From positions 1 to 64,000 of the forward strand of contig JANQHF010000082.1 in assembly GCA_028282725.1 (NCBI GenBank): a stretch of DNA of 64,000 bases, given 5' to 3'. The notes below the pieces were generated by a model. The model worked only from the letters and a program-made list of their open reading frames with translations, did not search any database and was not told the origin of the DNA. The position numbers were made by a program, and so were the translations under genes. The DNA is from Saprospiraceae bacterium (lineage in GTDB: Bacteria; Bacteroidota; Bacteroidia; Chitinophagales; Saprospiraceae). Below are positions 6,724 to 45,418 of this stretch, piece by piece. Position 1 is the first letter of the stretch, and each line of letters opens with the position of its first letter.

Positions 6724-6763
6724 AAAGAAGCTCTGTCTTACTTAAGGCTTATTCATATATTAG

Positions 6764-7969: not shown

Positions 7970-7981
7970 AAAAATATTACG

Positions 7982-10421: not shown

Positions 10422-10430
10422 TCTAAGTCT

Positions 10431-10787: not shown

Positions 10788-10816
10788 ATTCATCTGTAAG
10801 CCTGATCTTCCGACCA

Positions 10817-12469
10817 TCACAATGAAATACCTCTCTTCCAGGGGATGAAGTCATCCTGACCCAGGTGAACTGCCTTGGGAACGACATCACCACTTGCCAC
10901 CGTAATGATCAATTCCAGCAACTCCCTGCCTTTTGATTCGATGGTAGAGGCTCCTGAAATAATGGACCCGGTGTCCAGATCGATAATGTCTTCCATCCGT
11001 TGTGCCAGTTGAGAATTCGTTGACACCTTGATGGTCGGAGCAACTGCATTTCCCGTAGGGGTTCCCAAGCCGGTGGTGAAGACAATTATGTTGGCACCAG
11101 AGCCAGCCAGCCCGGTTGTGCTTTCCACATCATTCCCGGGAGTGCATACAAGGTTGAGTCCAGGGTGTATCGAGGGCTCCGCATAATCCAAAACATCAGT
11201 TACCGGCGATGTCCCTCCTTTTTTTGCAGCTCCGGCCGATTTAATCGCATCTGTGATCAATCCATCCCTGATATTTCCTGGTGAAGGATTAAACGCAAAG
11301 CTGGATTGGGATCTTCTGGCTTCGTCTGAATAGGATTTCATTAGAGAAGAAAATTTCCTGGCGATCTCCTGATTGGAGCACCTGTTGATTAACTCCTGTT
11401 CAATTCCATTCAGTTCCGGAAACTCCGCCAACATCGTAGTTCCTCCGAGGGCGACAAGAAGATCGGATGTATATCCAAGGGCTGGATTGGCGGTAAGACC
11501 GGAGAATCCATCCGAACCTCCGCATTCTAATCCCAATTTTAGCTTTGACAGAGAAGCTGGTGCTCTCTCAATTTTATTCGCCTCCATCAGTCCTGCAAAT
11601 GTTTGTTTTACTGCATTCGCAATGAGTTCCCTTTCAGATTCGCTGTCTTGTTGTTCGAGGTAGTAAATGGGTTTTGAACAATTCGGATAATGTTCCGTCA
11701 TCGTTTGCTTCATCAAGGAAACCTGGGCATTTTGACATCCCAGGCTCAGTAAGGTAGCCCCTGCAACATTTGAATGATTGATATACCCGGCAAGGAGTTT
11801 ACATAACATTTGCGTATCCTGGCGGGTACCGCCGCATCCTCCTTCATGGGTCAGGTATTTGATACCATCAACATTTTGAAAGATCCTTCTTTGTCTGAGC
11901 TCTTCCTGGTCCAGGATGATGTCAGTAGCCAGGATCGAGCTTGCGTCTTGACCTGATTGATATTGATCAATGAGCGATTGGGTATCTACGCGAAAACTCT
12001 TTGCAGTAGCATAACCCAATTGTTCATTCAGGGCTTCCCTGATGACATTGATATTTCTGTTTTCACAAAACACAAGCGGTATGACCAGCCAATAATTCAT
12101 TGTGCCCACTTGTCCATCCGACCGGTGGTAACCCATGAAGGTCCTGTTGGCGAATTCTGAATGATCAGGGGGTATCCACTCATAGTCAACAGATTGTATT
12201 TGGTAATCAGCTGTTGCATGCACAATGTTTCGGGTCGTGATCACTTCTCCACTCGAAATCTCTTTAGTTGCCTTTCCGACGATGACACCATACATAATCA
12301 CTTGATCACCGGGAGCAAATTGCACGGCTGCAAACTTGTGTTTGGACGGAACATCGGATACTAAATTGAATTTCTCTTCTTCCAGGACAACACGCTCTCC
12401 TTTTTGCAGATCCTGCAAGGCCACTATAATGTTGTCACGAGGATGAACTTTGAGTACCTTGTTGTGCAT
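10817..12469 (-). CDS. UxaA family hydrolase / altronate dehydratase
   Basis: N-terminal SAF-like domain 'HPRDNIIVALQDLQKGERV' and C-terminal 'GLECGGSDGFSGLTANPALGY'; ORF 10817..12496, internal ATG at 12469 preferred. Confidence 0.9.
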   Translation of the reverse strand: MHNKVLKVHPRDNIIVALQDLQKGERVVLEEEKFNLVSDVPSKHKFAAVQFAPGDQVIMYGVIVGKATKEISSGEVITTRNIVHATADYQIQSVDYEWIPPDHSEFANRTFMGYHRSDGQVGTMNYWLVIPLVFCENRNINVIREALNEQLGYATAKSFRVDTQSLIDQYQSGQDASSILATDIILDQEELRQRRIFQNVDGIKYLTHEGGCGGTRQDTQMLCKLLAGYINHSNVAGATLLSLGCQNAQVSLMKQTMTEHYPNCSKPIYYLEQQDSESERELIANAVKQTFAGLMEANKIERAPASLSKLKLGLECGGSDGFSGLTANPALGYTSDLLVALGGTTMLAEFPELNGIEQELINRCSNQEIARKFSSLMKSYSDEARRSQSSFAFNPSPGNIRDGLITDAIKSAGAAKKGGTSPVTDVLDYAEPSIHPGLNLVCTPGNDVESTTGLAGSGANIIVFTTGLGTPTGNAVAPTIKVSTNSQLAQRMEDIIDLDTGSIISGASTIESKGRELLELIITVASGDVVPKAVHLGQDDFIPWKRGISL

Positions 12470-12517
12470 ACTATGGCAACTTTGATGAAAAGCCAAATCA
12501 ATTCTAAATGTATATAG

Positions 12518-13915
12518 ATGAAGGCATTTTTGGATGAAAATTTCTTATTACAAAACGATACGGCACAAATCCTGTATCATGAATATGCGTCAAAAATGCC
12601 CATCATCGACTACCATAATCACCTTCCTCCGGATGAAATTACCGGGAATATTTGCTTTCAAAATATCACAGAGGCATGGTTACGCGGAGACCACTACAAG
12701 TGGAGGGCCATGCGTGCAAATGGTATCAATGAAACCTTCATAACAGGTGATGCTACTGATCCGGATAAATTTTTGAAATGGGCTGAGACGGTTCCCCATA
12801 CCATGCGAAATCCTCTGTATCACTGGACACATCTTGAATTGCAAAGATATTTTGATATCAATACATTGCTCGATCAGCATTCAGCCAGGACGATCTACCG
12901 GGATACCTCTGAATTGTTACAGACTGAGGCCTGCAGCACCCGTGCTATCCTCAGGAAAATGAACGTTGAGGTCATTTGCACAACTGATGATCCAGTAGAT
13001 GATTTGCAATTTCATAAGGCTTTTCAGATGGACTCTGAAAGCTTTGACCTGTTGCCAGGATTCAGACCGGACAAGTTCCTGATTGTTGAAAGCGAAGGCT
13101 TCACGGATCAAATACATAAACTGGAAGAAGTCACAAGTCGGGACATCCGGAACTTGCGGGATCTGGTAGAATGTTTACAAATGCGTATAGACTTTTTTCA
13201 TGATGCGGGATGCAGATTATCGGATCATGGTTTGACCAGGATTTTTGCTGCCGATTTTACAGATGACGAGGTCGACAAAATTTTGAAGAAGAGGCTGGCT
13301 CAGAGACAATTGTACTCGGCAGAGGTCCTGCAATACAAGTCTGCCATGCTCTACTACCTTGCAAGAATGTATGAAGCCAGGGATTGGACGATGCAATTCC
13401 ATCTTGGGGCTCTTCGGAACAATAACACCCGGCTCATCCGAAGTCTCGGCAGTGATGCAGGCGCTGATTCCATAGGAGATTTCCCTCAAGCCGCAGACCT
13501 TTCCAAATTCCTGAATCGATTGGATTCAGAAGAAAAGCTTGCCCGTACCGTTTTGTACAATTTGAATCCCCGTGATAACGAAGTATTTGCAACCATGGCG
13601 GGAAATTTCCAGGATGGAAGTATCCCTGGTAAGATCCAGTGGGGAAGTGCATGGTGGTTTCTTGATCAAAAAGACGGGATGGAGGATCAACTCAATGTTT
13701 TGTCCAATATGGGTTTGTTAAGTCGATTCATCGGGATGTTGACGGACAGCCGAAGTTTTCTTTCATTTCCCAGGCATGAATATTTCAGACGCATTCTCTG
13801 CAACCTCTTAGGGACAGATATTGAAAATGGCTTGCTCCCGAATGATAAGAACTTTATTGGTTCGATGGTGCAGGATATTAGCTACCGGAATGTGAAGAGG
13901 TATTTGGGGTTGTAG
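12518..13915 (+). CDS. uxaC: Glucuronate isomerase
   Basis: 'MPIIDYHNHLPPDEI', 'CTTDDPVDDLQFH', 'MQFHLGALRNNN', 'LTDSRSFLSFPRHEYFRRILCNLLG' typical of UxaC. Confidence 0.96.
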   Translation: MKAFLDENFLLQNDTAQILYHEYASKMPIIDYHNHLPPDEITGNICFQNITEAWLRGDHYKWRAMRANGINETFITGDATDPDKFLKWAETVPHTMRNPLYHWTHLELQRYFDINTLLDQHSARTIYRDTSELLQTEACSTRAILRKMNVEVICTTDDPVDDLQFHKAFQMDSESFDLLPGFRPDKFLIVESEGFTDQIHKLEEVTSRDIRNLRDLVECLQMRIDFFHDAGCRLSDHGLTRIFAADFTDDEVDKILKKRLAQRQLYSAEVLQYKSAMLYYLARMYEARDWTMQFHLGALRNNNTRLIRSLGSDAGADSIGDFPQAADLSKFLNRLDSEEKLARTVLYNLNPRDNEVFATMAGNFQDGSIPGKIQWGSAWWFLDQKDGMEDQLNVLSNMGLLSRFIGMLTDSRSFLSFPRHEYFRRILCNLLGTDIENGLLPNDKNFIGSMVQDISYRNVKRYLGL

Positions 13916-13970
13916 TTCTTGGTCTTTGATGGACGGAAGACGGGAGATGGTGGATGGTTGGTGCCATGTG

Positions 13971-14036
13971 CAAGGGGTTAAAACCCCTTGGAAGTTCCCT
14001 GATACATCATCGATTCCAATGGGCTTCAGCCCATTG
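13971..14036. repeat. Bipartite REP-like palindromic element, copy A
   Basis: CAAGGGGTTAAAACCCCTTG (13971-13990) + 26-nt spacer + CAATGGGCTTCAGCCCATTG (14017-14036). Confidence 0.8.
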
Positions 14037-14143
14037 CCCCATGGATTGTTATTACCTTGAAATCAACTCCTGAGTTCCTCAATGGGGATAACTATCTGGG
14101 CCAATCCTTATCTTGTCACTCGACCAGTAATTCACATTCATAC

Positions 14144-15133
14144 ATGAGTGACTCATTTGTTGCAGCATTTAAGATTATTCCACTCTTTACAGTATTGATT
14201 GTCACGACTTCCTGCCACACACTTTCTGACACAAAAACCATCAAACTCGCCCATGGTCTTTCGGTGACCCATTCTGTGCACCAGGCCATGGAAAAAATGG
14301 GTGAAGATCTCCTTGTTCTCTCCGGAGGGAAGCTAGCATTGGAAATCTATCCCAGTCAACAACTCGGTACGGAACGGCAAAGCCTGGAATTGCTGCAAAT
14401 TGGCAGTCTCGATATGACCAAGGTTTCAGCCGGTGTCCTGGAAAATTTTGCTCCCAAGATGAAAATCTTCGGAATCCCATTTTTATTCAGAGATCGTGAG
14501 CATTCTTTCGAGGTCCTGGATGGCCCCATTGGCAAACAGTTACTGGATGATGGGACAAAGTATTGGTTGAAAGGCCTGGGATATTATGATGCCGGCAGTC
14601 GCAGTTTCTATACCAAGGAGCGTCCGGTACATAGTCCGGAGGATCTTGAAGGACTGAAAATCAGGGTCATGGAAAGCGTCTCCGCTATGAATATGGTCCG
14701 GGCCCTTGGAGGATCACCCACACCCATTTCATGGGGAGAATTATACACGTCTCTACAACAAGGAGTAGTGGACGGGGCAGAAAACAATCCACCTTCCTTT
14801 TATCTATCTAAACATTATGAAGTCTGCAAGTACTATTCACTGGATGAACATACAGTGCTGCCAGATGTACTGATCGCAAGTACGCATCTCTGGAAGCGAT
14901 TGTCTGAAAAAGAAAGAAAATGGGTACAACAGGCGGTGGATAACTCGGTTATCCATCAAAGAAAATTATGGGCAGAGTCGGAGGCAGAGGCACTTTCTGA
15001 AGTGCAAAAGGCCGGCGTCGAGATTATCCGGCCGGACAAACAAATATTTCAGAACCAAGTAGCGGATTTGTATGCTAAATATAAGGATCAGCCCGAGATC
15101 TATCAGATCATTCGTGAAATTCAATCGCTTTAG
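14144..15133 (+). CDS. dctP: TRAP transporter substrate-binding protein DctP
   Basis: 'IKLAHGLSVTHSVHQAMEKM', 'SGGKLALEIYPSQQLGTERQSLELLQIGSLDMT', 'LQQGVVDGAENNPPSF'; ORF 14057..15133 with likely ATG at 14144. Confidence 0.92.
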   Translation: MSDSFVAAFKIIPLFTVLIVTTSCHTLSDTKTIKLAHGLSVTHSVHQAMEKMGEDLLVLSGGKLALEIYPSQQLGTERQSLELLQIGSLDMTKVSAGVLENFAPKMKIFGIPFLFRDREHSFEVLDGPIGKQLLDDGTKYWLKGLGYYDAGSRSFYTKERPVHSPEDLEGLKIRVMESVSAMNMVRALGGSPTPISWGELYTSLQQGVVDGAENNPPSFYLSKHYEVCKYYSLDEHTVLPDVLIASTHLWKRLSEKERKWVQQAVDNSVIHQRKLWAESEAEALSEVQKAGVEIIRPDKQIFQNQVADLYAKYKDQPEIYQIIREIQSL

Positions 15134-24176: not shown

Positions 24177-25598
24177 TTACTTCTTTATTGATTTCATGGT
24201 ACTTGGACAGACATAATCAGTAACCTCTATTCCTGAATCTTTAATTCCTTTAATGCCTCCTCTCACTTCAATCAGGTTGTGATAACCTCTTGACTTCAAA
24301 ATTGAAGAAGCAATCATCGAACGATTTCCGCTTGCGCAATACAGGTAGAAGGTCTCCTCTCCTGGAAATTCCGCAAGATGATCGTTGATATAGTCCAGGG
24401 GAGTGTTCTCAGCAGCAGGCATTCTTTCAGAATACCACTCGGTTTCCTTTCTTACGTCAAAGACGGGCAGGTCTGCTGTCAATCGATTCTTCAATTCGTC
24501 AGGATTGATTCTTTCGACTGTGTCGATTTCCTTTCCGGCTTCTTTCCACGGATCAATTCCACCTTTCAGATAACCAAGTGTATTATCAAACCCCACCCTT
24601 GATAACCTCGTCACCACCTCTTCCTCACGTCCCTCGGGAGCGACAATTAAAATAGGAGTAGATACATCCGCTACCAATGCTCCTGCCCATGGTGCAAAAT
24701 TGCTGTCGATGCTGATATGGATGGACCGGGGAACGAATCCCTTGGAAAAAGTTTCTCCATCCCTGGTATCCAAAACGAGTGCTTCACTCGTTTCGGCGAC
24801 CAGTTCGAATGCCTCCGGATCTAATTCCCTTGTACCATGACTGATCACTTGTTCTACGTCCTTGTATCCCTCTTTATTCAGCTGGACATTCATCGGGAAG
24901 TAGGCTGGAGGAGGCAAGAGACCCTCCGTGACTTCCTGGATAAATTCTTCTTTTGTCATATCGGCACGAAGTGCGTAATTCACTTTCTTTTGATTGCCAA
25001 GGGTATCTACAGTCTCTTTCATCATATTCTTTCCACATGCCGAGCCTGCCCCATGAGCCGGGTAGACGATGACTTCATCGGACAATGGCATGATCTTCGT
25101 CCTCAGGCTGTCATAAAGCAGACCTGCGAGATCTTCCTGTGTCATGTGGGCAGCCTTCTGTGCAAGGTCGGGTCTTCCTACATCTCCGAGGAAGAGCGTA
25201 TCACCCGAAAAAATGGCATGGTCATTCCCGTCAGAGTCGATCAAAAGAAAAGTCGTAGACTCCATGGTATGACCAGGTGTATGCAATACTTTGATCGTCA
25301 AGTCACCAATGGAAAATGTTTGTCCATCTTCGGCTATAATCGCGTCAAAAGATGGTTGAGCGGTTGGTCCGTAAATGATGGGTGCCCCCGTTTTCTCTGA
25401 CAATGTCACGTGACCACTGACAAAATCTGCATGAAAATGAGTCTCAAAAATATACTTCAGCCTGACGCCATCCTTTTTCATTCTGTCTATATATGGTTGA
25501 ACTTCGCGAAGAGGGTCGATGATGGCACCCTCACCTTTGGATGCGATGTAGTAGGCACCCTGTGCCAGGCATCCGGTATATATTTGTTCGATGTTCAT
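24177..25598 (-). CDS. MBL-fold metallo-hydrolase with two rhodanese domains (persulfide dioxygenase/rhodanese type)
   Basis: 'THFHADFVSGHVTL', 'HTPGHTMESTTFLL', 'SGDTLFLGDVGRPDL'; C-terminal rhodanese 'FYLYCASGNRSMIASSILKSRG'. Confidence 0.93.
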   Translation of the reverse strand: MNIEQIYTGCLAQGAYYIASKGEGAIIDPLREVQPYIDRMKKDGVRLKYIFETHFHADFVSGHVTLSEKTGAPIIYGPTAQPSFDAIIAEDGQTFSIGDLTIKVLHTPGHTMESTTFLLIDSDGNDHAIFSGDTLFLGDVGRPDLAQKAAHMTQEDLAGLLYDSLRTKIMPLSDEVIVYPAHGAGSACGKNMMKETVDTLGNQKKVNYALRADMTKEEFIQEVTEGLLPPPAYFPMNVQLNKEGYKDVEQVISHGTRELDPEAFELVAETSEALVLDTRDGETFSKGFVPRSIHISIDSNFAPWAGALVADVSTPILIVAPEGREEEVVTRLSRVGFDNTLGYLKGGIDPWKEAGKEIDTVERINPDELKNRLTADLPVFDVRKETEWYSERMPAAENTPLDYINDHLAEFPGEETFYLYCASGNRSMIASSILKSRGYHNLIEVRGGIKGIKDSGIEVTDYVCPSTMKSIKK

Positions 25599-25694
25599 TC
25601 TATTTCTTTATGAATTACAGGTATCTAAAATTGATAACACAAAATAAGGGGTTCTAATTCACTTGGATAGTGATGCTTGTCACAATCTCCACCG

Positions 25695-26303
25695 TTAATC
25701 ACTTCTCAAAAACCTTATACTCCACATCCCTCTCAGATCACCTTCCCGATAGCCCGTTGCCTGATCGTCGGGGTAATATTGGTTGATGATCTTGTATTCT
25801 TCTGATCCGATGTCATCACCTGGTGAGCCATGGCAGTTCAGACAAAATTCATTGATCACAATGGGTGCGTAGAAGGCTATATTGTGATCATCGATGAATT
25901 CGACATGCGGTTGCAAATCCTCTCCTTTATTGAATTGTTTTTGGTACGTCTTCAATTGTTCGGCCTCTATGCAGGAAGGGGAGTTCATAGGATTGCGAAT
26001 GTTCAATGAAGTTCTCCTGATATCGGCATTATATGCATTGGACAGGCTATCAGTCAAACTGAGCGCTCTGATATTACAAGAGGCAATGGCATTGTTTATG
26101 TCACCTTCACCGAGCGCTTTCTGCAATTGGCCGGACAGTACCGCCAATGTACGGGCAGCTATATCCTTACCCTTTGCCAGGTACTCTTCTTTTTCTTGTT
26201 GGTTGAATCGTACCTCAATATTTCCATCTTTTTGATTCTCACATTGGAAAAAACTCAATGCACCAATGATGAACACAAGGAATATCGCCACCCTGTTCTT
26301 CAT
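25695..26303 (-). CDS. DUF3365 (Tll0287-like) haem-binding lipoprotein
   Basis: Lipobox-like 'LSFFQCEN'; single CxxCH 'NEFCLNCHGSPGDDIGSEEY'; 'GDLRGMWSIRF' ending. Confidence 0.85.
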   Translation of the reverse strand: MKNRVAIFLVFIIGALSFFQCENQKDGNIEVRFNQQEKEEYLAKGKDIAARTLAVLSGQLQKALGEGDINNAIASCNIRALSLTDSLSNAYNADIRRTSLNIRNPMNSPSCIEAEQLKTYQKQFNKGEDLQPHVEFIDDHNIAFYAPIVINEFCLNCHGSPGDDIGSEEYKIINQYYPDDQATGYREGDLRGMWSIRFLRSD

Positions 26304-26386
26304 ATCACAAAAATTATCATTTGTTCGGATTGACGTTAATTATTAATCAAACACCTCCAGGGGATTTTAATTTCTTGGTCGTGGTA

Positions 26387-26406
26387 CAATGGGATGAATC
26401 CCATTG
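26387..26406. repeat. Single palindrome related to the second half of the REP-like element
   Basis: CAATGGGAT-GA-ATCCCATTG perfect inverted repeat. Confidence 0.6.
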
Positions 26407-26501
26407 AAAGTCATCATTTATTCATCGACCGCTACCTGATGGTTTTCCGTTTCAACAAGCGTGTACATATATAAATACACAAGAAAATCATGTATCCCGG
26501 G

Positions 26502-26816
26502 TTAAGCTGCGGGTTTCAATAGTGTCTTTACATCATCCATGCTGCCTCCATTGTATACGCTTTTTATCCCGGCTGCCCTGAGCAAAAGGTTAGCTTGCTG
26601 ACTCCTGTTACCACTACGGCAATAGAGAATGATGGGCTTTTCCATTTTTCTGAATTCATCTCTCCTGCTCACTAGGGTGCGCAAAGGGATATTGAATGAT
26701 CCATCAACATGCCCTGCTTCATACTCCCAGGGCTCTCTGACATCCACAATGATCACTTCAGATTGATCGATAAGATCTTTCAATTCTAGTTTCTTTTTTC
26801 TTTGTCCAAATAACAT
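26502..26816 (-). CDS. Rhodanese-like domain protein
   Basis: 'VIIVDVREPWEYEAGHVDGSFNIPL', active-site loop 'ILYCRSGNRS'. Confidence 0.92.
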   Translation of the reverse strand: MLFGQRKKKLELKDLIDQSEVIIVDVREPWEYEAGHVDGSFNIPLRTLVSRRDEFRKMEKPIILYCRSGNRSQQANLLLRAAGIKSVYNGGSMDDVKTLLKPAA

Positions 26817-32635: not shown

Positions 32636-33379
32636 TTATCCAAAAATTTTTGCCTTGATGAATCGAAAGTTCATTTCGGCAATATTCGTGATCGAAATTC
32701 CCTCAGGACATTCTACTTCGCATGCTCCGGTAAATGTACAGCTTCCAAAACCCTCCTCTTTCATTTGGTCTGTCATCCCAATGACCCGACGGTGTTGTTC
32801 TGCCTTTCCTTGAGGCAACTTATTGAGGTGATTGATTTTAGCCGCAGTAAATAGTGCAGCAGAAGAATTTTTACAGGTTGCAACACAGGCTCCACAACCG
32901 ATACAAGCAGCTGCATCCATCGCGGCGTCGGCTACAGGTTTCGGTATGGGAATGGCATTGGCTTCCGGAGCCGTTCCTGTTTTGGCACTGATATAGGCAC
33001 CGTGCTCAATAATGCGATCAAAGGCAGAGCGATCGATGATCAGATCTTTGATCACTGGAAAGGAGGCTGCACGCCACGGTTCTACCACAATGGTACTTCC
33101 ATTCTCAAAACTGCGCATATGTAATTGACAGGTGGTCATGTTATCATGCGGCCCGTGGGCCCGGCCATTAATGAACACACCGCATTGCCCGCAAATACCT
33201 TCACGACAATCGTATTCAAAGGCGATGACTTCTTCCCCCTTTAATACGAGTTGTTCGTTCAAATGGTCCAATGCTTCCAGGAAGGACATGTCTTCGGAAA
33301 GACCATCCACCTCATAACTTTGCAAAGCCCCTTTGTCTTCAGATCCGTCTTGCCTCCATATTTTGAATGTTACCTCCAT
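32636..33379 (-). CDS. sdhB: Succinate dehydrogenase/fumarate reductase iron-sulfur subunit
   Basis: '[22 protein letters not shown]' [2Fe-2S]; '[16 protein letters not shown]', 'CEVECPEGI' clusters. Confidence 0.95.
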
Positions 33380-33386
33380 CGAATTT

Positions 33387-35303
33387 TTATTTGTAGCTGC
33401 GCACGGTGGGCTTTATATTTTCAAATTCAAGATCTTCCTTATGCAGTTCAAATCTACCTTCGGCATATTCCCAGGCAGAAACATAGGAATACTGATCATC
33501 ATTTCGTACTGCTTCTCCATCTTCGGTTTGGTATTCTTCACGAAAATGCGCTCCACACGACTCCTCTCGCTCGAGGGCATCGGTACACATTAAAATTCCC
33601 AATTCGATGAAGTCGGCCAGGCGATAGGCCTTTTCTAATTCAGGGTTCATTTTATCACCAGCTCCTGTCACCTTCACATCCCGCCAAAATTCACGTTTCA
33701 GCATTTCGATCTTCCGGATAGCATCTTCCAGTCCCGGTTTGTTTCGACTCATGGCACACTCCTGCCACATGATCTTCCCAAGTTCCCTGTGGAAATGATC
33801 CACGGTCTTCGTTCCATTAACACTTAAAATTCTCCGGATATGTTCCTCCACTTCACTTTCTGCACGGGCAAATTCAGGATGATCAGTAGTTGTATGTTCT
33901 TCTTTCAGGGCATTGACGAGATAATTGTTAATTGTATTGGGCAAAACGAAATACCCATCAATACTGGCTTGCAGCAATGAGTTGGCCCCCAGGCGATTGG
34001 CCCCGTGATCTGAAAAGTTGCATTCACCCACGGCATACAATCCCGGAATCGTAGTCATCAATTCATAATCTACCCACAAACCACCCATCGAAAAATGTGC
34101 AGCTGGCGAAATCTGCATGGGTTCCTGGTAAGCATCAATACCTGTAATTTTTTTGTACATGTTGAACAGATTGCCATACCGGTCCTTGATCGTTTCCAGA
34201 CCGAATTTCCCGATGGCATGCTTGAAGTCCAGGTAGACTGCATTTTTAAGCCGTCCTACGCCATAACCTGTATCAATGCGTTCCTTAGCTGCGCGGGATG
34301 CAATGTCCCTTGGAGCTAAATTTCCGAAGCTCGGGTATCGGCGCTCCAAATAATAATCCCTCTCCGTTTCAGGGATTTCGTTGGCCTTCCTTGGATCATC
34401 TTTTTGCAGGGGCACCCATATCCGGCCGTCATTGCGCAAAGATTCTGACATCAAGGTCAATTTAGACTGAGCCTCACTGGTCTGAGGCAGGGCAGTGGGA
34501 TGAATTTGCGTAAAGCTGGGAGCAGCAAAATAAGCCCCGCGCTTGTGCGCTTTCCAAATGGCGCTTCCATTACATCCAATGGCCAAAGTTGACAATCGAA
34601 AGACGCGCGAATAACCACCGGTGGCCAAAACGACGGCATCGGCAGCATAGCGCTTCAACCTTCCTGTGACAAGGTCGCGTACGATAATTCCCTTTGCTTT
34701 TCCATCGACCACAACCAAGTCCATCATTTCACTCCTCGGATACATTTTGACTTTCTTGGCGCGAACCATTTTGTACAGTTGTGAATAAGCAGCCAACAGT
34801 AGCTGTTGACCGGTTTGTCCGCGTGCATAAAATGTACGTTGCACCTGCACCCCTCCAAAACTCCGATTGACCAATACACCTCCATATTCCCTGGCGAAGG
34901 GAACCCCCTGCTGTACGTAGTGGTCAATGAGTGGCGCAGAAAGTTCTGCCAATCTGTATACGTTGGCTTCCCGGGATCTGAAATCGCCACCTTTCAGCGT
35001 ATCGTAAAACATTCGCCAAACACTGTCGCCATCATGCTGGTAGTTTTTAGCAGCATTGATGCCTCCCTGGGCAGCGACCGAATGCGCCCTGCGCGCTGAA
35101 TCCTGGTAACAAAAACATTGCACGTCATAGCCCAATTCAGCCAAGGTGGCAGCAGCACCGGCACCTGAGAGACCAGAACCCACCACGATTACATTCAGTT
35201 TCTTTTTATTCGCGGGATTGATCAGTTGGGCATGCAGCTGATAGTTGCGCCACTTATCTTCTAATCTGCCTTCTGGTATTTTTGAGTTTAATTGCATCGA
35301 CAT
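33387..35303 (-). CDS. sdhA: Succinate dehydrogenase/fumarate reductase flavoprotein subunit
   Basis: '[49 protein letters not shown]'; ORF to 35342, likely ATG at 35303. Confidence 0.95.
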
Positions 35304-35307
35304 AGGA

Positions 35308-35976
35308 CTATTTGAAATAGACAATGAATGGAATGATCCCAAATCCTATTGCCATGATCGCGGCATAAATCAATGATACTTTGGCCAGGGTCCTCAATCC
35401 ATTCTTATGATAAAATCCAAGGGTCATAAAACCACTTTTGAGGCCGTGATTCAAATGCAATCCCAAAGGAATCATCAGGACCGTGTAGAAGATCACATAG
35501 TAAATATTCTGAAAGAGGCTGTAGGTTACCTGGTAAACATCTATGTTTCCCATAGCATCTATTCCAGGACTTTCTCCCATGCCTAGTTTGATGCGCGCCC
35601 AGAAGTTGGCTAAATGCACTATGATAAAGAGCAGGATCATCGTCCCGATCAATCCCATATTCTGGGAAGTCCATGTGCTGTTTTCCCTTGCATTGTTTAC
35701 TTCATACTTCTGTGGTTTTGATTTTCGATTTCCAATGGTGATGAGTATGGCATAAATGACGTGAAAGAGAATGGAGAGATAAAGCAAATAGGCTACTGCT
35801 TTGATGATGGGACTATCCCGCAATGTTTTGGAATACGCATTATACATCTCCCTGGCCATGTCTTCAGGCAGCAGCAAGATGCAATTGGCAGAGAGATGAA
35901 CGATTAAAAAAATACATAGGAAGAGGCCCGTTCCTGCCAGGATGGTTTTTCTGAAAAAAAGTGGGTTGATCCTCAT
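35308..35976 (-). CDS. sdhC: Succinate dehydrogenase cytochrome b subunit
   Basis: 5-TM cytochrome b type; directly upstream of sdhA; '[18 protein letters not shown]', '[15 protein letters not shown]'. Confidence 0.93.
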
Positions 35977-36053: not shown

Positions 36054-37475
36054 TTATTTTTTATACAACTTGGCTTGATATTTAGGATGCATCATATTTT
36101 CTACACTAAGGATTTTATCTAATTCCTCTTTTGTTAACAGCCCTTTTTCCAACACTATTTCAGGAATCGTCTTCCCGGTGCGTATCGCTTCTTTTCCAAT
36201 GACATCTCCCATATGATGCCCAATAAAGGGATTCAGGAAGGTGATGATACCCACAGAATTGTACACCATCTCTTTAGTGTGCTCCTCGTTAGCAGTTATA
36301 CCATTGATGCACTTTTCCGCAAGTGTGACGCAGGCATTGGACAACAACTCTATGGATTCAAATAGGCATTGAGCTATCATCGGTTCCATAACATTCAATT
36401 GAAGCTGGCCGGCTTCTGCCGCGAAAGAGATGGCAACATCATTGCCAATGATTTTGAAACAAACCTGGTTGGCTACTTCAGGTATAACGGGATTTACTTT
36501 TGCCGGCATAATTGATGAGCCTGCCTGCATTTCCGGCAGGTTAATTTCATTCAGGCCACACCTGGGCCCGGAGGACAATAATCTGAGATCATTGCAGATC
36601 TTTGATAGTTTCACCGCTGTTCTCTTCAAGGCTCCGGAAATCATTACATAAGCACCACAGTCAGAGGTCGCTTCTATAAGATTTACCGCTGGCACAAAAC
36701 TGGCTTTTGTGAATTTTTGTAAGTAACCTATCGACAATGCTGTAAATCCCCGGGGAGCATTGACGCTGGTGCCGATAGCCGTAGCTCCTAAATTCACTTC
36801 AAGAATAAGGTCGCGACAATTCTTAAGGTTCTTGGTTTCTTCCTTGAGGTTGACCGACCATGCAGCAAATTCATCTCCTAAAGACATCGGGACAGCATCC
36901 TGCAACTGGGTTCTGCCCATTTTGAGTACTTTCCTGAATTCTGCGGCTTTTTTGTCCACACTCGTTGTCAACACATTGAGGTGTTCTAAAAGATCATTCA
37001 TGTAATAATAGAGGGCAACTCTGAAACCTGTAGGATAGGCATCATTGGTAGACTGGGATTTGTTAACATGATCATTGGGGTGTAAAATTTCGTAATTGCC
37101 CTTCTTGTGCCCATTTAGCGTTAAGGCCACATTGGCAATGACCTCATTGGTATTCATATTCACAGAAGTGCCGGCCCCGCCTTGAAATACATCTGACGGG
37201 AAGAACTTCGAATATCTTGTCAGATTTGACAGAATATGATCGCAAGCCTCGATAACCATGTTTGCTTTCTCAGCCGGAATGGTTCCTATTTCCTTGTTCG
37301 CAGCCGCACATGCTTTTTTTGTTAAGATGAGCCCTTTGATAAAAATCGGATAGTCTCCAATCTTCGATTTCGATATTTTAAAATTGTTTACAGCCCTTTG
37401 AGTGTGAATACCGTAGTATAGTTCATTGTAGATTTCGAGTTCGCCCAAAAGGTCCCTTTCTTTTCTAGTTTTCAT
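36054..37475 (-). CDS. aspA: Aspartate ammonia-lyase
   Basis: '[31 protein letters not shown]', '[20 protein letters not shown]' fumarase/aspartase signature; ORF to 37505, ATG at 37475 preferred. Confidence 0.94.
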
Positions 37476-37613
37476 AGCAATGCTAAAAGTAACCAGAATT
37501 AGCATCGAAGTCTTATAGAATTTCTGCCTGAATCAAATCCCCGGAAAGGCCAGAACGGCCCGGACGGTCGAAAAAAGTCGAATAAAATTGAAGGCGGTAA
37601 AAGATTTGCATGT

Positions 37614-39341
37614 CTAGATTCGGCCATTTGATTGAAGGGCGTATTTAACTGAATCCGTTGACTGCACACCCGGCACCTGGTCTACCCAATCAATGGCTTC
37701 CTGGATACTCATAGCGAAATTTGAAGCACCCATTTTTTTAGTCAACCCACTGATCTGAAATGCGTCTCTCACCGGACCTTTTACTCTGGCAAACAATAAT
37801 TGGATGTTATTGGAAAGCAACTCTTCATGTAATTCGCTCAAAGCGTGAATGGCACTGCTATCGACGTTGTTGATACTTTCTGCACTTACGATGACTGCTC
37901 TTAGAGCATCACCCTTTTGAATAATCAGATCCTCAATCTGATCTTTGAAGTACGTCACGTTGGCAAAATATAACTGGGCATCGAAACGGATCACCAGAAT
38001 ATCATCGCACACTTCCAGCTCTTTGAATCGTTTGATGTTCCGAAATTCCGAGGAGCCGGGAATTCTGCCGAGGACTGCAATATGAGGCCGGGTCGTTTTA
38101 TAAATAATGATGGTGAGGGATAGAAGTACACCGATACCAATTCCCTGCTCTATGCCAAAGGCCAGGGTCGTTAAAAAAGTTATCGCCAACATCCAGAAGT
38201 CGGACCTGTTGGCAGACCACAAATGTTTGGCCTCCTTGAAATCCATTAGCCCAAAAACGGCCACCATGATGACCGATGCGAGAATTGCATTGGGAAGATA
38301 ATAAAAGAAAGACGTCAGGAATAGGAGCGTGAGAACAATGAGTAAGGCACTAATCATGGAGCTCACACTTGTTTTTGCGCCTGCCTGGTCATTTACAGCC
38401 GTTCTTGAAAATCCTCCTGTCACCGGGTAAGATTGAAAAAAGGATCCACCGATATTTGCCAGGCCAAGAGCTATCAATTCCTGGTTGGCTTCTACCTTGT
38501 AATCCCTATGTCTGACCTGAACTGCCTTTGCCACTGCAATACTCTCCATGAAACTCACCAGGGAAATTGCGAGCGCTGTTGGAAGAAGCATTGTAATGGT
38601 TTCGACATTGAGTACCGGTGTACTTATAAAAGGGAGGCCTTTGGGCACTTCTCCCACAATTTTTGCGCCTGCAGCTTCCAGGCCAAATACCCGGACCGCA
38701 AGAATACCCAGCACAACGGCAATGAGCAATCCGGGGATCTTTGGATTGATCTTCTTCAGTATTATGATCAACACAATGCCCAATATGCCAATGGTGAAAG
38801 TCAACCAATGAATTTCCCCGAAATGCATGAAAGCATCAATCAAAATTTCATGTACGTGATGACTTCTGGCAATCTCAATGCCCAAGAGATGTTTCAACTG
38901 TGAAAATCCGATGATCAGGGCTGCAGCTGAAGTGAATCCACTGATCACCGGATGAGACAAGAAGTTGACCAGGAAACCCAGTTTGAAAACTCCAAGTGTG
39001 AATTGAATGATGCCTACCAGTAGTGCCAATGTGATAGTCAGACTGATATAGGATTGTGTGCCCGCCTCAGCCAATACGCCAATTCCCGCCGCGGTCAACA
39101 ATGAAACCATGGCCACCGGTCCCACCGCCAGTTGGCGCGAAGTCCCCATAAGGCCATAAATGATCAATGGAATCGTTGAGGCATATAAGCCGTAGATGGG
39201 AGGAAGACCTGCAATCATGGCGTAGGCCATTCCTTGGGGGATCAACATAATACCGACTGTTATGCCGGCTGACAAATCACCCCTTAACCACTGTTGATTG
39301 TAGTTTTTGAATGTTTGAAAAAAAGGAAAAAATCCGGCCAT
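37614..39341 (-). CDS. SulP family inorganic anion transporter with STAS domain
   Basis: 'DLSAGITVGIMLIPQGMAYAMIAGLPPIYGLYASTIPLIIYGLMGTSRQLAVGPVA'; C-terminal STAS 'VIVSAESINNVDSSAIHAL'. Confidence 0.96.
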   Translation of the reverse strand: MAGFFPFFQTFKNYNQQWLRGDLSAGITVGIMLIPQGMAYAMIAGLPPIYGLYASTIPLIIYGLMGTSRQLAVGPVAMVSLLTAAGIGVLAEAGTQSYISLTITLALLVGIIQFTLGVFKLGFLVNFLSHPVISGFTSAAALIIGFSQLKHLLGIEIARSHHVHEILIDAFMHFGEIHWLTFTIGILGIVLIIILKKINPKIPGLLIAVVLGILAVRVFGLEAAGAKIVGEVPKGLPFISTPVLNVETITMLLPTALAISLVSFMESIAVAKAVQVRHRDYKVEANQELIALGLANIGGSFFQSYPVTGGFSRTAVNDQAGAKTSVSSMISALLIVLTLLFLTSFFYYLPNAILASVIMVAVFGLMDFKEAKHLWSANRSDFWMLAITFLTTLAFGIEQGIGIGVLLSLTIIIYKTTRPHIAVLGRIPGSSEFRNIKRFKELEVCDDILVIRFDAQLYFANVTYFKDQIEDLIIQKGDALRAVIVSAESINNVDSSAIHALSELHEELLSNNIQLLFARVKGPVRDAFQISGLTKKMGASNFAMSIQEAIDWVDQVPGVQSTDSVKYALQSNGRI

Positions 39342-39400: not shown

Positions 39401-40048
39401 TCACGTTTCCAGTAAGGCAATCTCGTTTCTTCCCAGCTTCACTTTTCCCTGGATCTCAAGCTTTTTCAATAACCTGGAAATAGACTCTCTCGATGCATTC
39501 AGATCATGAGCGATATCGGAGTGAGAAATGTGGAAGACGTTTTGATCCTTTTGTCTCTGCATCTCATCCAGGTAGTATAATAGTTTTTCATCCAAATTGG
39601 CAAAGGAAACCCTGTCGATCGTATCGATGAGAGCAAACAATCTCGCATCGTACATACCAAAAATGAAATCTCTCCAGGCACTGTATTTTTCCATCCATTC
39701 ATCGGCACTCTGCAACGGAATCATGAGAATGGTCGCATCTTCTTCACACACCGCCTTGATTTCGCTTCGTTTGCGGATCATACAGCAACTGAAGGAAGCT
39801 GCACAGGACTCTCCTGATCCCAGGAAGTACAACAAGATCTCCTGGCCATCTTCCCCCTCTCGAATGATCTTCATCAATCCTGAGATCAGCATAGGTACGA
39901 ATTCAATGTAATCACCGTAGTCCATGATGACCTCACCCCTGGAGAATTGAGCCATTTGAGAAACTTCAGCTATTTCCCGGATCAATGCCTCGCTTTGACC
40001 GAGATCCGGAAATAAGTCCTTGATTATTTGTGAGTCAATTTCTGCCAT
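39401..40048 (-). CDS. Crp/Fnr family transcriptional regulator
   Basis: cNMP-binding-like fold and C-terminal HTH 'ISHSDIAHDLNASRESISRLLKKLEIQGKVKL'. Confidence 0.93.
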   Translation of the reverse strand: MAEIDSQIIKDLFPDLGQSEALIREIAEVSQMAQFSRGEVIMDYGDYIEFVPMLISGLMKIIREGEDGQEILLYFLGSGESCAASFSCCMIRKRSEIKAVCEEDATILMIPLQSADEWMEKYSAWRDFIFGMYDARLFALIDTIDRVSFANLDEKLLYYLDEMQRQKDQNVFHISHSDIAHDLNASRESISRLLKKLEIQGKVKLGRNEIALLET

Positions 40049-40077: not shown

Positions 40078-40458
40078 CTAAGCTGTATTTTGAGCATTGA
40101 TGCCTCCGTCCAAATTATAAACGCGAAAGCCAGAATTTTGCAAAAGCATACAAACGCGTAAGCTTCTTCTTCCTGTCCTGCAGAATACATAGTAATGTCT
40201 CCCGGGATCAAGTGCATCGATTTCATCTGCCAATGTAGTGGAGAGATAATCCATGTTAATGGCACCCTTTAAGGAGCCTGCTCTAAACTCATCAATTGTA
40301 CGTACATCCAGGAGGACTGCCTGGTGATCTCGGGACGCCTGACTTTCAAATTCTTGAAAATGGAGATTTTTGAGCAGGTTCTTATGCAATTCCCACCTGG
40401 ATAGTCCACATACGTCTGATCCTTCCGTGACTGATTCTTCCATTCTAATTTGATCCAT
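40078..40458 (-). CDS. Rhodanese-like domain protein
   Basis: 'AVLLDVRTIDEFRAGSLKGAINMDY', 'YYVFCRTGRRS'; ORF 40078..40491, ATG at 40458 preferred. Confidence 0.88.
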   Translation of the reverse strand: MDQIRMEESVTEGSDVCGLSRWELHKNLLKNLHFQEFESQASRDHQAVLLDVRTIDEFRAGSLKGAINMDYLSTTLADEIDALDPGRHYYVFCRTGRRSLRVCMLLQNSGFRVYNLDGGINAQNTA

Positions 40459-40493
40459 GTCGAAAATACGGTTCCCAAAGAGTGTTCTCAAAA

Positions 40494-43358
40494 TTAATGT
40501 TTACTTATATAATAGGCTTCTTTTACCGGCTTGAGTGGTCTGTTGAACCAATAGGGACGTCGCAGGCCATCGGGACCTGGTGCAGGCCGGGTCATCTTCA
40601 TCCACTCACGGTATACTTCCATGGATTTATTGGTATCTACCATGATGTCCCCATACTTCTCACCTGGTCCTGGGTGTTCGATACGGACCCTTTGATGCCA
40701 GCAGTGCATACCACTGACAGGATCGGGATGTACGGCATGAGTGATATTTTGATGTACACCTCCATCCAACCAAAAAATGCGTTTACTGTCCGGATCGGAA
40801 CTTTGAAAGGGCTTAATTCCGGATTTGGTATTCATCAGCCATTTTCCATCCTTTTGTTCAATATTGACCGTATTGGTGGCCCATCGATTTCCCTGATCCT
40901 GATCTCTTCGCCATCTGCCTAGGTGATGTGAACATGCAACTACGCCTGGTTTCATTCCTTCCGTGACCCATACCTTATCGATAAAGTATCCGATATCGGT
41001 ATTCAATTTGACGAGATCACCAGTCCGGAAATTCCACCTCAGCGCGTCATCGGGATGCATCCAAATCGGGTTGCGATTTGCAATTTCGACCAACCATTTG
41101 GCATTGGCCGATCTTGAATGAATCAAGGTCGGTAACCGGAATGTTGGGACCAGCACATACTCACCTTTGGTTCGGTCCAGCTTTTCCTCGTGGATATGGC
41201 TTTTTATGTAGGTCGGTATGGCATACTCGGGCCATTTCCAGTCTACCAGGGTTTGTGAATAGAATTCCTGCTTTCTTGAAGGTGTCGGGAAGCCAACCAT
41301 AGCTTTCCCGTCAATCATGACACCTATGGATGCACCTTCCTTGCTGATAACCTTGGTTACCTCATCTACTGTACTTCCTTCCAAATCATCAGTAGTCAAA
41401 TGTGTTTCATTCTTTTTGTAACCATGTTTTTCGACTTCAAAGGCACCGTATTTTTTCATGTATTCCAATTCGGTGAGACCTTCTTTCCGTGCTGCCTCCG
41501 GTAGCCCTTTGGTATGTTCGAATATGTATTGATAGTACTCGTCTATTGTAATCTTCTCCCCTTTTCTATAAGGTGATTCAAAGTGTTTCCTGATGCCCAT
41601 ACTTCCATCGGGATCGATTCTCCAACTCAATTCGATCCAGAATTCATCTTCTTCCCAGACTTCTCCGGGATTTACTTCATATGTGAAAGTCACATCTTTT
41701 CCGGCTCTTCTGGCTGCTTCACGGAGTACGGGTTGTCTGAATGCGACCCATGTGCCGGAGTGGGTGGCATAGCTATTCAAATCGTGCCGTTCGGAACTGT
41801 GCCCCATAGGAAGGACATAGTCAGCAAAAAACGCCGTCTCATTCCAGGTGGGTGTCAATGCGGCATGAAGCCCAAAGCATCGATGATCCGAATATGCCTC
41901 CATCCAGGTGAAGCCATCCGGGTACGTCCAAACCGGGTTGAACACCCTGGAGAAATAGACATCCATGAATCCGCGTCCGTCTTTCAGCATATGGGGAAGA
42001 AGGAAGCTCATTTCGTGCATGGCCAGGGGATATTCTCTCGGAAAATGCAACTCGTTCCAAAACTTGACAGCTGGTGGAGTATCAAAAAATTTGGGCTTGA
42101 ATTTATTCCAACTGTTTGGTGAAGTGCCACCTTTTGTCCCGACACTTCCCGTTAAGACATTCAGAAAATGCAGACAGCGCGAAACACACCAGCCACCCAA
42201 ATTCCCACTTGCGGCACTTCTCCAATTGTGAGTGGCAAAACGCTCTCCTGCCTCGCCGATCTTTATGGCAACTTCTCTGATGACCGATGCCCTGACCCCG
42301 CTTTCTTGTTCAGCAAATTCGGGAGTGAATTCAGCATAGGCCTCTTTCATTTTTGAGATATAGTTCTCAAATGTTATTTCGATTTCAGGATGGAGTTTTT
42401 TCAGATATTCGTCCCAATTAACCCAATTCTCCAGGAAAGTCCGGTTATACAGTCCTTCTTCCAGGATGATCCGGGCAATGGCTAATAAAACTGCCGCCTC
42501 GGTACCCGGATAAGTTGGCATCCAATAATCGGACATGCTGGCCGTATTGGATAACCGGGGATCCATCGTTGCCAATTTGGCACCTTTCATCTTTCCTTCA
42601 ATGATCCTCTGGGCATGGGGGTTGAAGTAGTGCCCCGATTCCAGATGAGCGGAAATCAGGAGGATAAACCTGGCCTCGGAGTGGTCAGGGCTGGGACGGT
42701 CATAACCATGCCACACGCTGTATCCAAACCGGGCACCCGACGAACAAATATTTGTGTGACTGTTGTGCCCGTCGATTCCCCATCCTTTCAACACCCTCTT
42801 TGCATAGCCTTCGTGTCCGGGCCGTCCGACGTGATAGGCAATTTCATTGTTGCGGCCTTCTTGCAAAGCAGTCCGAATTCTATCCGCAATCTCATCCAGA
42901 GCCTGGGCCCACGTGATCCTTTTCCAATCACCTTGACCTCTTTCTCCCTTTCTTTTCAGAGGATATAAAATACGATCCGGGTCCGTGATCTGGTTGATGG
43001 TCGCTGGTCCCTTTGCACAATTTCTTCCGCGGCTTCCCGGATGATATGGATTCCCTTCAAACTTGCGGATTTCACCTTTTTCCTTATCAATATAAGCCGT
43101 AAGTCCGCATGCGCTTTCACAGTTGAAACACGTAGTTGGAACAATGGTATATGTCTTCTTTTCTTTTTTAGGCCATGCTTTCGCTTCGTATTCTTCCCAA
43201 TGATCCCATTGTTCGATCGGAGGAAAACCGTTCAGTTCAGTAACAGTCATGCGGTCGAGGATACCCTTCCGGTCTTTGTGCAGATCAGGTATGATTTTCA
43301 GCTTTTCTGCTATCCGCTCAATGAAAGTGTGTTGCCGGGTCATATGAGTCTCGATCAA
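40494..43358 (-). CDS. Molybdopterin-dependent oxidoreductase catalytic subunit (DMSO reductase superfamily)
   Basis: 'CFNCESACGLTAYIDKEKGEIRKFEGNPYHPGSRGRNCAKGPATINQITDPDRILYPLKR' [4Fe-4S] plus Mo-bisPGD signature; 'HTNICSSGARFGY' with a likely Cys ligand. Confidence 0.93.
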   Translation of the reverse strand: MIETHMTRQHTFIERIAEKLKIIPDLHKDRKGILDRMTVTELNGFPPIEQWDHWEEYEAKAWPKKEKKTYTIVPTTCFNCESACGLTAYIDKEKGEIRKFEGNPYHPGSRGRNCAKGPATINQITDPDRILYPLKRKGERGQGDWKRITWAQALDEIADRIRTALQEGRNNEIAYHVGRPGHEGYAKRVLKGWGIDGHNSHTNICSSGARFGYSVWHGYDRPSPDHSEARFILLISAHLESGHYFNPHAQRIIEGKMKGAKLATMDPRLSNTASMSDYWMPTYPGTEAAVLLAIARIILEEGLYNRTFLENWVNWDEYLKKLHPEIEITFENYISKMKEAYAEFTPEFAEQESGVRASVIREVAIKIGEAGERFATHNWRSAASGNLGGWCVSRCLHFLNVLTGSVGTKGGTSPNSWNKFKPKFFDTPPAVKFWNELHFPREYPLAMHEMSFLLPHMLKDGRGFMDVYFSRVFNPVWTYPDGFTWMEAYSDHRCFGLHAALTPTWNETAFFADYVLPMGHSSERHDLNSYATHSGTWVAFRQPVLREAARRAGKDVTFTYEVNPGEVWEEDEFWIELSWRIDPDGSMGIRKHFESPYRKGEKITIDEYYQYIFEHTKGLPEAARKEGLTELEYMKKYGAFEVEKHGYKKNETHLTTDDLEGSTVDEVTKVISKEGASIGVMIDGKAMVGFPTPSRKQEFYSQTLVDWKWPEYAIPTYIKSHIHEEKLDRTKGEYVLVPTFRLPTLIHSRSANAKWLVEIANRNPIWMHPDDALRWNFRTGDLVKLNTDIGYFIDKVWVTEGMKPGVVACSHHLGRWRRDQDQGNRWATNTVNIEQKDGKWLMNTKSGIKPFQSSDPDSKRIFWLDGGVHQNITHAVHPDPVSGMHCWHQRVRIEHPGPGEKYGDIMVDTNKSMEVYREWMKMTRPAPGPDGLRRPYWFNRPLKPVKEAYYISKH

Positions 43359-44981
43359 TTATATTAATGAAATTCGTTGTGGGGCTTCCACCCAGACATG
43401 CTCGGTGATATAAATACCCATCAATGTCAATATCGAAGCAATTGCAATAGTTATCGATTCACCTGCCGTCAATAGCAATATCAATGGAATCAAATTGCCA
43501 CAAATGATAATCCCGCCCCAGAACAGCTTGCGATATCTTCCTTTCACAATCATTTGCACGGTAAGCGTTGCATCCTTTGTAGGATGTGTTGTCACAATCT
43601 CGAGAATAATCGAAGCCAGGTTGATGACGATCGAAATGGCCAAAGTGGATTTCAAAAAGCTCATCCACGATGGTTCTATCCCAATGAAATATTCGAGTAA
43701 TATAAAGATTGCTGCACCTGCCATAATTGCGTGAATGAACATGTGTAAGGAGAGGGTAGGGCTTTGCCAAAAATCACGGCCTTTTGCCTGGGCAAACAAG
43801 AAGGCGGTATAGATGGCGATCAAAATGGCGACAGGAGCGGAAAGCGCGAAAACGATGGAAAAAAAGACTTCCCAATTGAAGAAAAGAGCAACCCCTGTAA
43901 GTACGAGCAGTGTCCCGTAAATAGTAATGGTATATCCTCCTTTGACCAACCACGATCCGAATTGAGGACGTAGCAATACGTATGGAAATCTCTTGGGCTG
44001 ATCCAGATCCATGATGAGCAGGACACCGGTCAATAGAAGAAATAACATTCCGGTGATCACGGATGACCAAACCAAAGCCGGAGAAAGTTTGACAATACCC
44101 AGCAACCAGGCCAGGACAGGAATGAACACCGCCCCGGATGCAATGGCCTTTGTCCAGATATACCCTGAGACCTCCCATCCCCATAGTATCCCTTTGTCCG
44201 GGGTGTCGTATACTCGTTTTGCCTTTTTATTCATGAGTACGTCTATACTCTTGGGCACTCCGGAAGTCGTGTGATTCGTCACTGAATTAGAGCCGTTTAT
44301 TTTCAAGGTCTCTGCAATCACATCTGCATTGGTATAGGCTATTTTTTCTGCCTCCTTGGCAAAGTGCCCTACACCCAATGACTGCGACCCCCATAAGGTG
44401 ATATCTGAAGTATCTGTTTCATTAGGGATTAAGGAAACATCATCGGCATCGATGTAAAATAGATTAGGTTGGGTGGCTTTTTCTGGTTTTCTGGTCTTTA
44501 CCGCCTGTCTTGCCAGGAGTTGTGAAATCTCACTTTCAGGATTGTCCATATCACCCGAGATGATAGCATGCTCAGGGCAAACATTTACACAGGCGGGTTC
44601 AAGACCGATATCGATGCGATGGGCACAGTAATTGCACTTGGCGGCAGTGTGCGTTTCGGGGTCAATATACAGCGCGTCATAGGGACAGGCCTGCATACAG
44701 GACTTACATCCGATGCAACGATCATTGTCAAAATCGACAATGCCATCGTCCCGGGTGTAGAGTGCCTCAGTCGGGCAAATATCAACACAGGGTGCATCCG
44801 AGCAATGATTACACCTCATTACAGAAAATAAGCGTCTGGTATCCGGAAAGCTTCCTTTTTCTACCTGTTTGACCCAGGTTCTGTTTACACCGACCGGTAT
44901 ATCATGTTCGGACTTACAGGCCGTTGTACATGCATGACAACCAATACACTTTCTGTTGTCTATAATGAAGCCATATTTCAT
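43359..44981 (-). CDS. Fused four-cluster ferredoxin and NrfD-type membrane anchor
   Basis: N-terminus 'KCIGCHACTTACKSEH...CNHCSDAPCVDICP...CIGCKSCMQACPYDA...CNYCAHRIDIGLEPACVNVCP'; C-terminus about 8 TM segments, NrfD-like. Confidence 0.9.
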   Translation of the reverse strand: MKYGFIIDNRKCIGCHACTTACKSEHDIPVGVNRTWVKQVEKGSFPDTRRLFSVMRCNHCSDAPCVDICPTEALYTRDDGIVDFDNDRCIGCKSCMQACPYDALYIDPETHTAAKCNYCAHRIDIGLEPACVNVCPEHAIISGDMDNPESEISQLLARQAVKTRKPEKATQPNLFYIDADDVSLIPNETDTSDITLWGSQSLGVGHFAKEAEKIAYTNADVIAETLKINGSNSVTNHTTSGVPKSIDVLMNKKAKRVYDTPDKGILWGWEVSGYIWTKAIASGAVFIPVLAWLLGIVKLSPALVWSSVITGMLFLLLTGVLLIMDLDQPKRFPYVLLRPQFGSWLVKGGYTITIYGTLLVLTGVALFFNWEVFFSIVFALSAPVAILIAIYTAFLFAQAKGRDFWQSPTLSLHMFIHAIMAGAAIFILLEYFIGIEPSWMSFLKSTLAISIVINLASIILEIVTTHPTKDATLTVQMIVKGRYRKLFWGGIIICGNLIPLILLLTAGESITIAIASILTLMGIYITEHVWVEAPQRISLI

Positions 44982-45091
44982 CTAAATCACTCTTTCACTG
45001 TTTTTGATAAGTGGTTGAAAGGTATAGACAGATAAAGTGATTGTTGGAAAATTAGTGGATGTTGGCTTTTCATATATTGTTCTGGTACTCA

Positions 45092-45418
45092 TCACATATT
45101 ACAATTACAGTTTTCGAGGCACTCTATGATCAATGACACATCTCTTTCCTTGAGTGAGTAGAAGATATTTCTGCCTTCTCTCTTTGAAGAAAGCAAGCCT
45201 TTTAGTTTCATATTCTGTAAGTGATGCGAGGTTAGTGATTGTTCCGTCCCTAGTTTTTTACAAATTTCTGTAACGGAAAGCCGCGGGAATATTTCCAGTT
45301 GATGAATGATCGCTAACCGGATCGGATGAGCCACCGTCTTTAGGATATATGCAATACGCTCAAGTTTTTCGGCTTCTTTCTTATTGAATATCGGACTATG
45401 CGTCAGATCAGTCATCAT
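45092..45418 (-). CDS. ArsR family transcriptional regulator with C-terminal CxC
   Basis: 'LKTVAHPIRLAIIHQLEIFPRLSVTEICKKLGTEQSLTSHHLQNMKLKGLLSSKREGRNIFYSL'; tail 'ECLENCNCNM'. Confidence 0.92.
   Translation of the reverse strand: MMTDLTHSPIFNKKEAEKLERIAYILKTVAHPIRLAIIHQLEIFPRLSVTEICKKLGTEQSLTSHHLQNMKLKGLLSSKREGRNIFYSLKERDVSLIIECLENCNCNM

Follow-up and report, generated by a model that had tools for sequence, protein, structure and literature searches.

The fused FeS-NrfD and molybdopterin oxidoreductase genes of a Saprospiraceae bacterium fit the polysulfide-reductase-like complex 3 (PSRLC3) type and probably encode a sulfite:menaquinone oxidoreductase that faces the cytoplasm and operates in the manner of SoeABC. 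They lie in a stretch of 64,000 nucleotides (assembly GCA_028282725.1, contig JANQHF010000082.1, positions 1 to 64,000), hereafter the window. Sulfite oxidation is favoured because related complexes are linked to dsrA and nearly exclude AprA in Chlorobiaceae, because they are linked to persulfide dioxygenase (PDO) genes, because SulP, TauE, YeeE, TusA and DsrE are found among their neighbours, and because the window's genome has no SUOX-family oxidase. The membrane enzyme would thus turn toxic sulfite left from sulfide breakdown into harmless sulfate.

Gene organization of the locus

Open reading frame checks and domain searches bore out the first-pass annotation of four genes on one strand, with the following coordinates and domains. 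Other genes of the window to which we refer are included.

45092..45418, minus strand: ArsR/SmtB-family regulator, 108 aa (HTH_5; over the cut-off of the HTH_metalloreg model; C-terminal CxxxC and an extra CNC)
43359..44981, minus strand: fused electron-transfer/anchor subunit, 540 aa (Fer4_11 and NrfD; PsrB-like N-terminal half, NrfD/PsrC-type membrane domain in the C-terminal half)
40494..43358, minus strand: Mo-bisPGD catalytic subunit, 954 aa (Molybdop_Fe4S4, Molybdopterin, Molydop_binding; N-terminal [4Fe-4S], Cys ligand in HTNICSSG)
40078..40491, minus strand: single-domain rhodanese, loop CRTGRR (Rhodanese domain)
39401..40048, minus strand: Crp/Fnr-family regulator, probably on the same transcript (domain search; gene run)
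37614..39341, minus strand: SulP anion transporter with a STAS domain, suggested to export sulfate (domain search; gene run)
26502..26816, minus strand: small single-domain rhodanese near the PDO gene (window genes)
24177..25598, minus strand: MBL-fold and double rhodanese protein of the PDO type, proposed sulfite source (not adjacent; a homologue adjoins the complex in relatives)

The Mo gene had been described as following the FeS-NrfD gene without a gap. The adjacency holds, and the annotated TTG start (43358) indeed leaves zero gap; the alignment with homologues begins only at the ATG at 43343, however, so the TTG is probably not used. The ATG would yield a 949-aa protein and a gap of 15 nt. 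For the rhodanese, the ATG at 40458 is a more likely start than 40491 and leaves a gap of 35 nt. On the same strand, the Crp gene (29 nt after the rhodanese) and the SulP gene (59 nt after Crp) follow at short distances, and the operon, first proposed to comprise four genes, is therefore likely a unit of six, from ArsR through SulP (45418-37614). Co-transcription of the ArsR gene is less certain because 110 nt separate it from the FeS-NrfD gene. Promoter and terminator scans at the locus gave signals at chance level. Read by eye, succinate dehydrogenase-like genes (cytochrome b, flavoprotein, FeS) occupy 32636-35976 on the minus strand, with an aspartase/fumarase-like gene (36054-37505) upstream of them, on the same strand as the cluster.

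The sequence ECLENCNCNM was verified as the true C-terminus of the ArsR protein, and the CxxxC with which its last helix ends is conserved in ArsR homologues encoded at further family loci. BigR/SqrR-type sulfur sensors carry a Cys pair in helix 2 and helix 5; no Cys was found near the helix-2 position in the window's ArsR, which has the C-terminal CxxxC instead. It also scored 48.7 of 155 bits with the BigR model, below the cut-off, and thus differs from the BigR/SqrR regulators in both Cys pair and model score.

Subunit architecture and structural relatives

The fusion of the electron-transfer and membrane-anchor subunits in one 540-aa protein, recognized in the first reading, was confirmed by domain search. 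It is not a sequencing accident, since the FeS and NrfD domains are both present in 42/42 intact fused proteins scanned. The FeS half contains 16 cysteines (four [4Fe-4S] clusters), a number found in 60 of 68 members. Of the family's 83 Mo subunits, 79 have the expected Mo-ligand motif H[TS]N[IV]CS[SA]G and none carries a Tat motif; the window's subunit lacks a Tat signal, as first reported. No TorD/NarJ-type chaperone gene is adjacent in the window, as first observed, and a search of the relatives' flanking regions gave no TorD-like gene, although the rapid divergence of TorD proteins makes this a weak test, with a weak positive control. In haloarchaea and Rhodococcus, the gene directly 3' of the Mo gene encodes an Mrp/NBP35 FeS-scaffold ATPase, which perhaps serves in maturation instead of TorD.

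Foldseek with the AlphaFold model of the fused subunit (anchor half good, FeS half of low confidence) retrieved PsrB and PsrC of Thermus thermophilus PsrABC (2VPW) and ActC-type anchors. The FeS half is closest to PsrB (40% identity), and the NrfD-type anchor fold matches with a TM score of 0.78 by target length. By contrast, the Thermus enzyme has three separate subunits, and the window's Mo subunit matches it well only over the N-terminal half. For the Mo subunit, AlphaFold gave a poor model (pLDDT 60), which was left out of the analysis; the subunit's closest solved relatives are arsenate and polysulfide/thiosulfate reductases, with ArrA as the best match.

With ArrA and PsrA as the best solved matches of the Mo subunit, a PsrB-like FeS half, and the name PSRLC itself, the complex might be a cytoplasmic polysulfide/persulfide reductase, with menaquinol reducing sulfane sulfur to sulfide. 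Consistent with this main rival, the Mo subunit has a 38% identical relative in Campylobacterota, a phylum with cytoplasmic psr genes linked to sulfur reduction, one of them being induced by S0 reduction (PMC10045233). That relative, from a Sulfurovum mangrovi plasmid record, shares the order FeS-NrfD-Mo; unlike in the window, its FeS and NrfD genes are separate, though abutting, and TorD and a further FeS gene follow 3'. SulP and TauE neighbours, on the other hand, suit oxyanions. Together with the distribution of carriers and the AprA pattern described below, this makes the reductase an unlikely reading.

Distribution and phylogenetic placement

At least 529 relatives of the Mo subunit were found in a scan of a genome collection, the best 80 of which belong to Saprospiraceae, Flavobacteriaceae, Cyclobacteriaceae, Chlorobiaceae, Calditrichota, KSB1, Acidobacteriota, Pirellulaceae, Nitrospinae, Neomarinimicrobiota and Spirochaetia. 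Further carriers, known from plasmid records, are Thermomicrobium, Rhodococcus and haloarchaea; carriers in culture include Flavilitoribacter nigricans and Lutibacter litoralis. Among 100 genomes of the window's family and order, 29 encode a Mo subunit 71-85% identical to that of the window. The fused gene lies directly 5' of the Mo gene at nearly all loci whose contig reaches that far, and a fused-gene match is found near 72 of 83 Mo genes. This range of carriers argues against polysulfide reduction: some of the genera are aerobic heterotrophs, and the family also occurs in haloarchaea and, beside oxidative Dsr, in phototrophic sulfur oxidisers.

In a maximum-likelihood tree, the family and its Sulfurovum and Azoarcus relatives grouped on a supported branch that excludes PhsA, TtrA, DmsA and an ArxA-like protein; we claim only this exclusion, since long branches make the deeper order unsafe. 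Against the NCBIfam models of ArrA, PhsA, TtrA and DmsA, the Mo subunit reached at best 186 bits, compared with cut-offs of at least 694. With ArrA as the best solved match and an ArsR gene leading the cluster, the complex could be taken for an Arx/Arr-type enzyme acting on arsenite or arsenate. Such an enzyme is very improbable: the Cereibacter arx-like gene falls on a separate branch, ars genes do not recur among the neighbours, the Mo subunit lacks a Tat signal, and the ArsR protein is as similar to regulators linked to sulfur as to those of arsenic genes.

The Azoarcus KH32C relative (33%), considered as a candidate SoeA, was ruled out by its Tat signal and arsenic-island context. At 6245-14558 of the KH32C plasmid, FeS and NrfD are encoded by genes of their own beside this Tat-bearing relative, along with TorD and one more FeS gene, and the locus adjoins an arsenic-resistance island and a two-component system.

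Relation to PSRLC3 and SoeABC

The window's complex is clearly orthologous to a two-gene complex of Chlorobiaceae: the Mo subunits are 65-66% identical and fall in one supported clade, and the fused subunits are about 50% identical. PSRLC3 of green sulfur bacteria likewise consists of two genes (PMC5473276), and a passage in PMC6338057, citing Frigaard and Dahl 2008, presents it as a suggested alternative sulfite-oxidising system. Judged from sequence, the window's complex fits PSRLC3, a name that we apply because gene number, fusion and dsr context agree and not from a labelled locus tag. Both share the order of fused FeS-NrfD gene then Mo gene, the lack of a Tat signal, and rhodanese, TusA, DsrE and TauE in the surroundings. 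They differ in that the complex of green sulfur bacteria lies beside reverse Dsr (rDsr), whereas the window's copy is accompanied by ArsR, Crp and SulP, in a genome with PDO instead of rDsr.

SoeABC of Allochromatium vinosum and Aquifex aeolicus resembles the complex in its Mo/FeS/membrane-anchor composition, in the lack of a Tat signal on the Mo subunit, in the presumably cytoplasmic catalytic side and in the proposed transfer of electrons from sulfite to quinone. However, SoeB and SoeC are separate proteins, and SoeC is reported to be less than 25% identical to other NrfD-type families and to form a separate cluster (PMC6303296), whereas the anchor of the present family matches NrfD (PF03916) in 42/42 proteins scanned. 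Because its subunits are fused and its anchor is of the NrfD type, the complex is not canonical SoeABC, judged by these two features. This result therefore lowers the view that the complex is SoeABC, not the view that it works like SoeABC.

The first-pass annotation had found no clear match to a characterised enzyme. Biochemically this stands, as our literature search found no biochemical or genetic test of any family member; yet the complex has a name, fits PSRLC3 and recurs in more than 500 genomes. It is real, widely conserved, already named, and of a known but apparently uncharacterised kind.

Linkage to dsr genes and near-exclusion of AprA in Chlorobiaceae

In Chlorobium, the two genes lie directly 5' of tauE-dsrE2-rhodanese-tusA-dsrN-dsrC-dsrA-dsrB, and in 20 of the 25 Chlorobiaceae genomes with both genes on one contig the Mo gene is 4.5-5.7 kb from dsrA. 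Among 86 Chlorobiaceae genomes, the Mo gene was found in 45, dsrA in 58 and AprA above cut-off in 11. Of the 58 genomes with dsrA, 41 carry the Mo gene, versus 4 of the 28 without dsrA, or 35/48 versus 0/17 when only high-quality assemblies are counted; the four exceptions are all assemblies below 90% completeness. Within the dsrA-positive genomes, it occurs in 1/9 with AprA versus 40/49 without (Fisher p=1e-4, a test that ignores phylogeny and overstates the evidence because the genomes are phylogenetically dependent). Two genomes that we take to be among those scanned follow this pattern: Chlorobaculum tepidum TLS with AprA, two dsrA copies and no PSRLC3, and Chlorobium luteolum DSM 273 with PSRLC3 and no AprA. 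Nine dsrA-positive genomes have neither PSRLC3 nor AprA and must be explained by another sulfite outlet or by assembly gaps.

AprA/Sat is the known onward route for sulfite. As rDsr frees sulfite in the cytoplasm (PMC6397845), sulfite oxidation is the expected role of genes that take the place of AprA/Sat after rDsr. Polysulfide reduction, by contrast, gives no ready explanation of the near-exclusion of AprA.

Sulfur genes near the complex and in the window's genome

PDOs convert persulfide to sulfite, an established reaction. A survey likewise describes PDO as making sulfite from persulfide (PMC12345210). PDO-rhodanese genes lie within 5 kb of the complex in 17 of 30 genomes of the window's relatives, nine of the 17 at 1.6-2.0 kb, which leaves just the room of the fused gene; the window's own PDO gene is 15 kb away. 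As PDO is nearly universal in the relatives (94/101), only linkage is informative, and a co-occurrence test was dropped. The window's PDO-rhodanese belongs to the 472-aa family that adjoins the Mo complex in relatives. Close to it and to the small rhodanese, within 24177-26816 on the minus strand, is a gene that by eye is of the DUF3365-like haem-lipoprotein type.

Within 7 kb of the Mo gene at 83 loci, we counted SulP at 36 (51 of 53 copies on the same strand), PDO-rhodanese at 35, rhodanese at 17, Crp at 13, a YeeE pair at 12-13, SQR-like genes at 8, DsrE2 at 7, TusA at 5 and ArsR at 5; MoaD/MoaE/MoeB-like Moco genes, read from sequence, were present at 6-11. The complex adjoins a TauE 'sulfite exporter' gene in two haloarchaea, and DsrE and TusA genes in Rhodococcus. 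At nine Flavobacteriaceae loci, the Mo gene is followed by two different SulP paralogues (about 32% and 50-60% identity to the SulP of the window), of which one may serve sulfite and the other sulfate. Besides the PDO of the window, the window's genome encodes a second PDO, a YeeE pair and a type III SQR-like gene; no PF00174 (SUOX-family) sulfite oxidase and no dsrA were found in it.

TusA, DsrE and rhodanese handle sulfane sulfur rather than sulfite, as would befit a dehydrogenase of another reduced sulfur compound (thiosulfate, or persulfide on a TusA/DsrE carrier) delivering electrons to quinone. We regard this as improbable, since the same proteins equally serve PDO and rDsr upstream of sulfite, and the AprA exclusion points to the sulfite step. 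The first-pass annotation had proposed sulfur oxyanion or persulfide chemistry and left the substrate open; sulfur oxyanion chemistry is borne out, and neighbours and phyletic pattern together now point to sulfite oxidation.

Proposed pathway

In the sulfite-oxidation model, cytoplasmic sulfite would most likely be supplied by the PDO of the same window, and by rDsr in green sulfur bacteria, with the rhodanese handling persulfide sulfur upstream of this step. The 954-aa subunit would convert sulfite to sulfate at its Mo-bisPGD site, and the two electrons would pass first through its N-terminal [4Fe-4S] cluster and then through the fused subunit's four clusters before reaching quinone bound in the NrfD-type domain. 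SulP would remove the sulfate, and ArsR and Crp might switch the gene set on according to sulfur species or redox state.

Discussion

How cytoplasmic sulfite is disposed of is unsettled in dsr-bearing sulfur oxidisers without Apr-Sat and in aerobic Bacteroidota with PDO. On balance, we favour the view that the fused complex represents a sulfite:quinone oxidoreductase family that is widespread and separate from SoeABC, SorAB/SUOX and Apr-Sat. It would operate in about ten bacterial phyla and in haloarchaea, following the enzyme that supplies sulfite to the cytoplasm in each case (rDsr in phototrophs, PDO in aerobic heterotrophs), and would have been overlooked by surveys counting only soeABC. 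A 2023 genome study stated that Prosthecochloris without sat/aprAB go only as far as sulfite (PMC10158934), and a survey reported SoeABC to be absent in Bohai Sea sediments (PMC12345210). Should the complex prove to be the missing step, these two statements might have to be revised, and the fused gene would provide a simple marker for the sulfite-oxidation trait.
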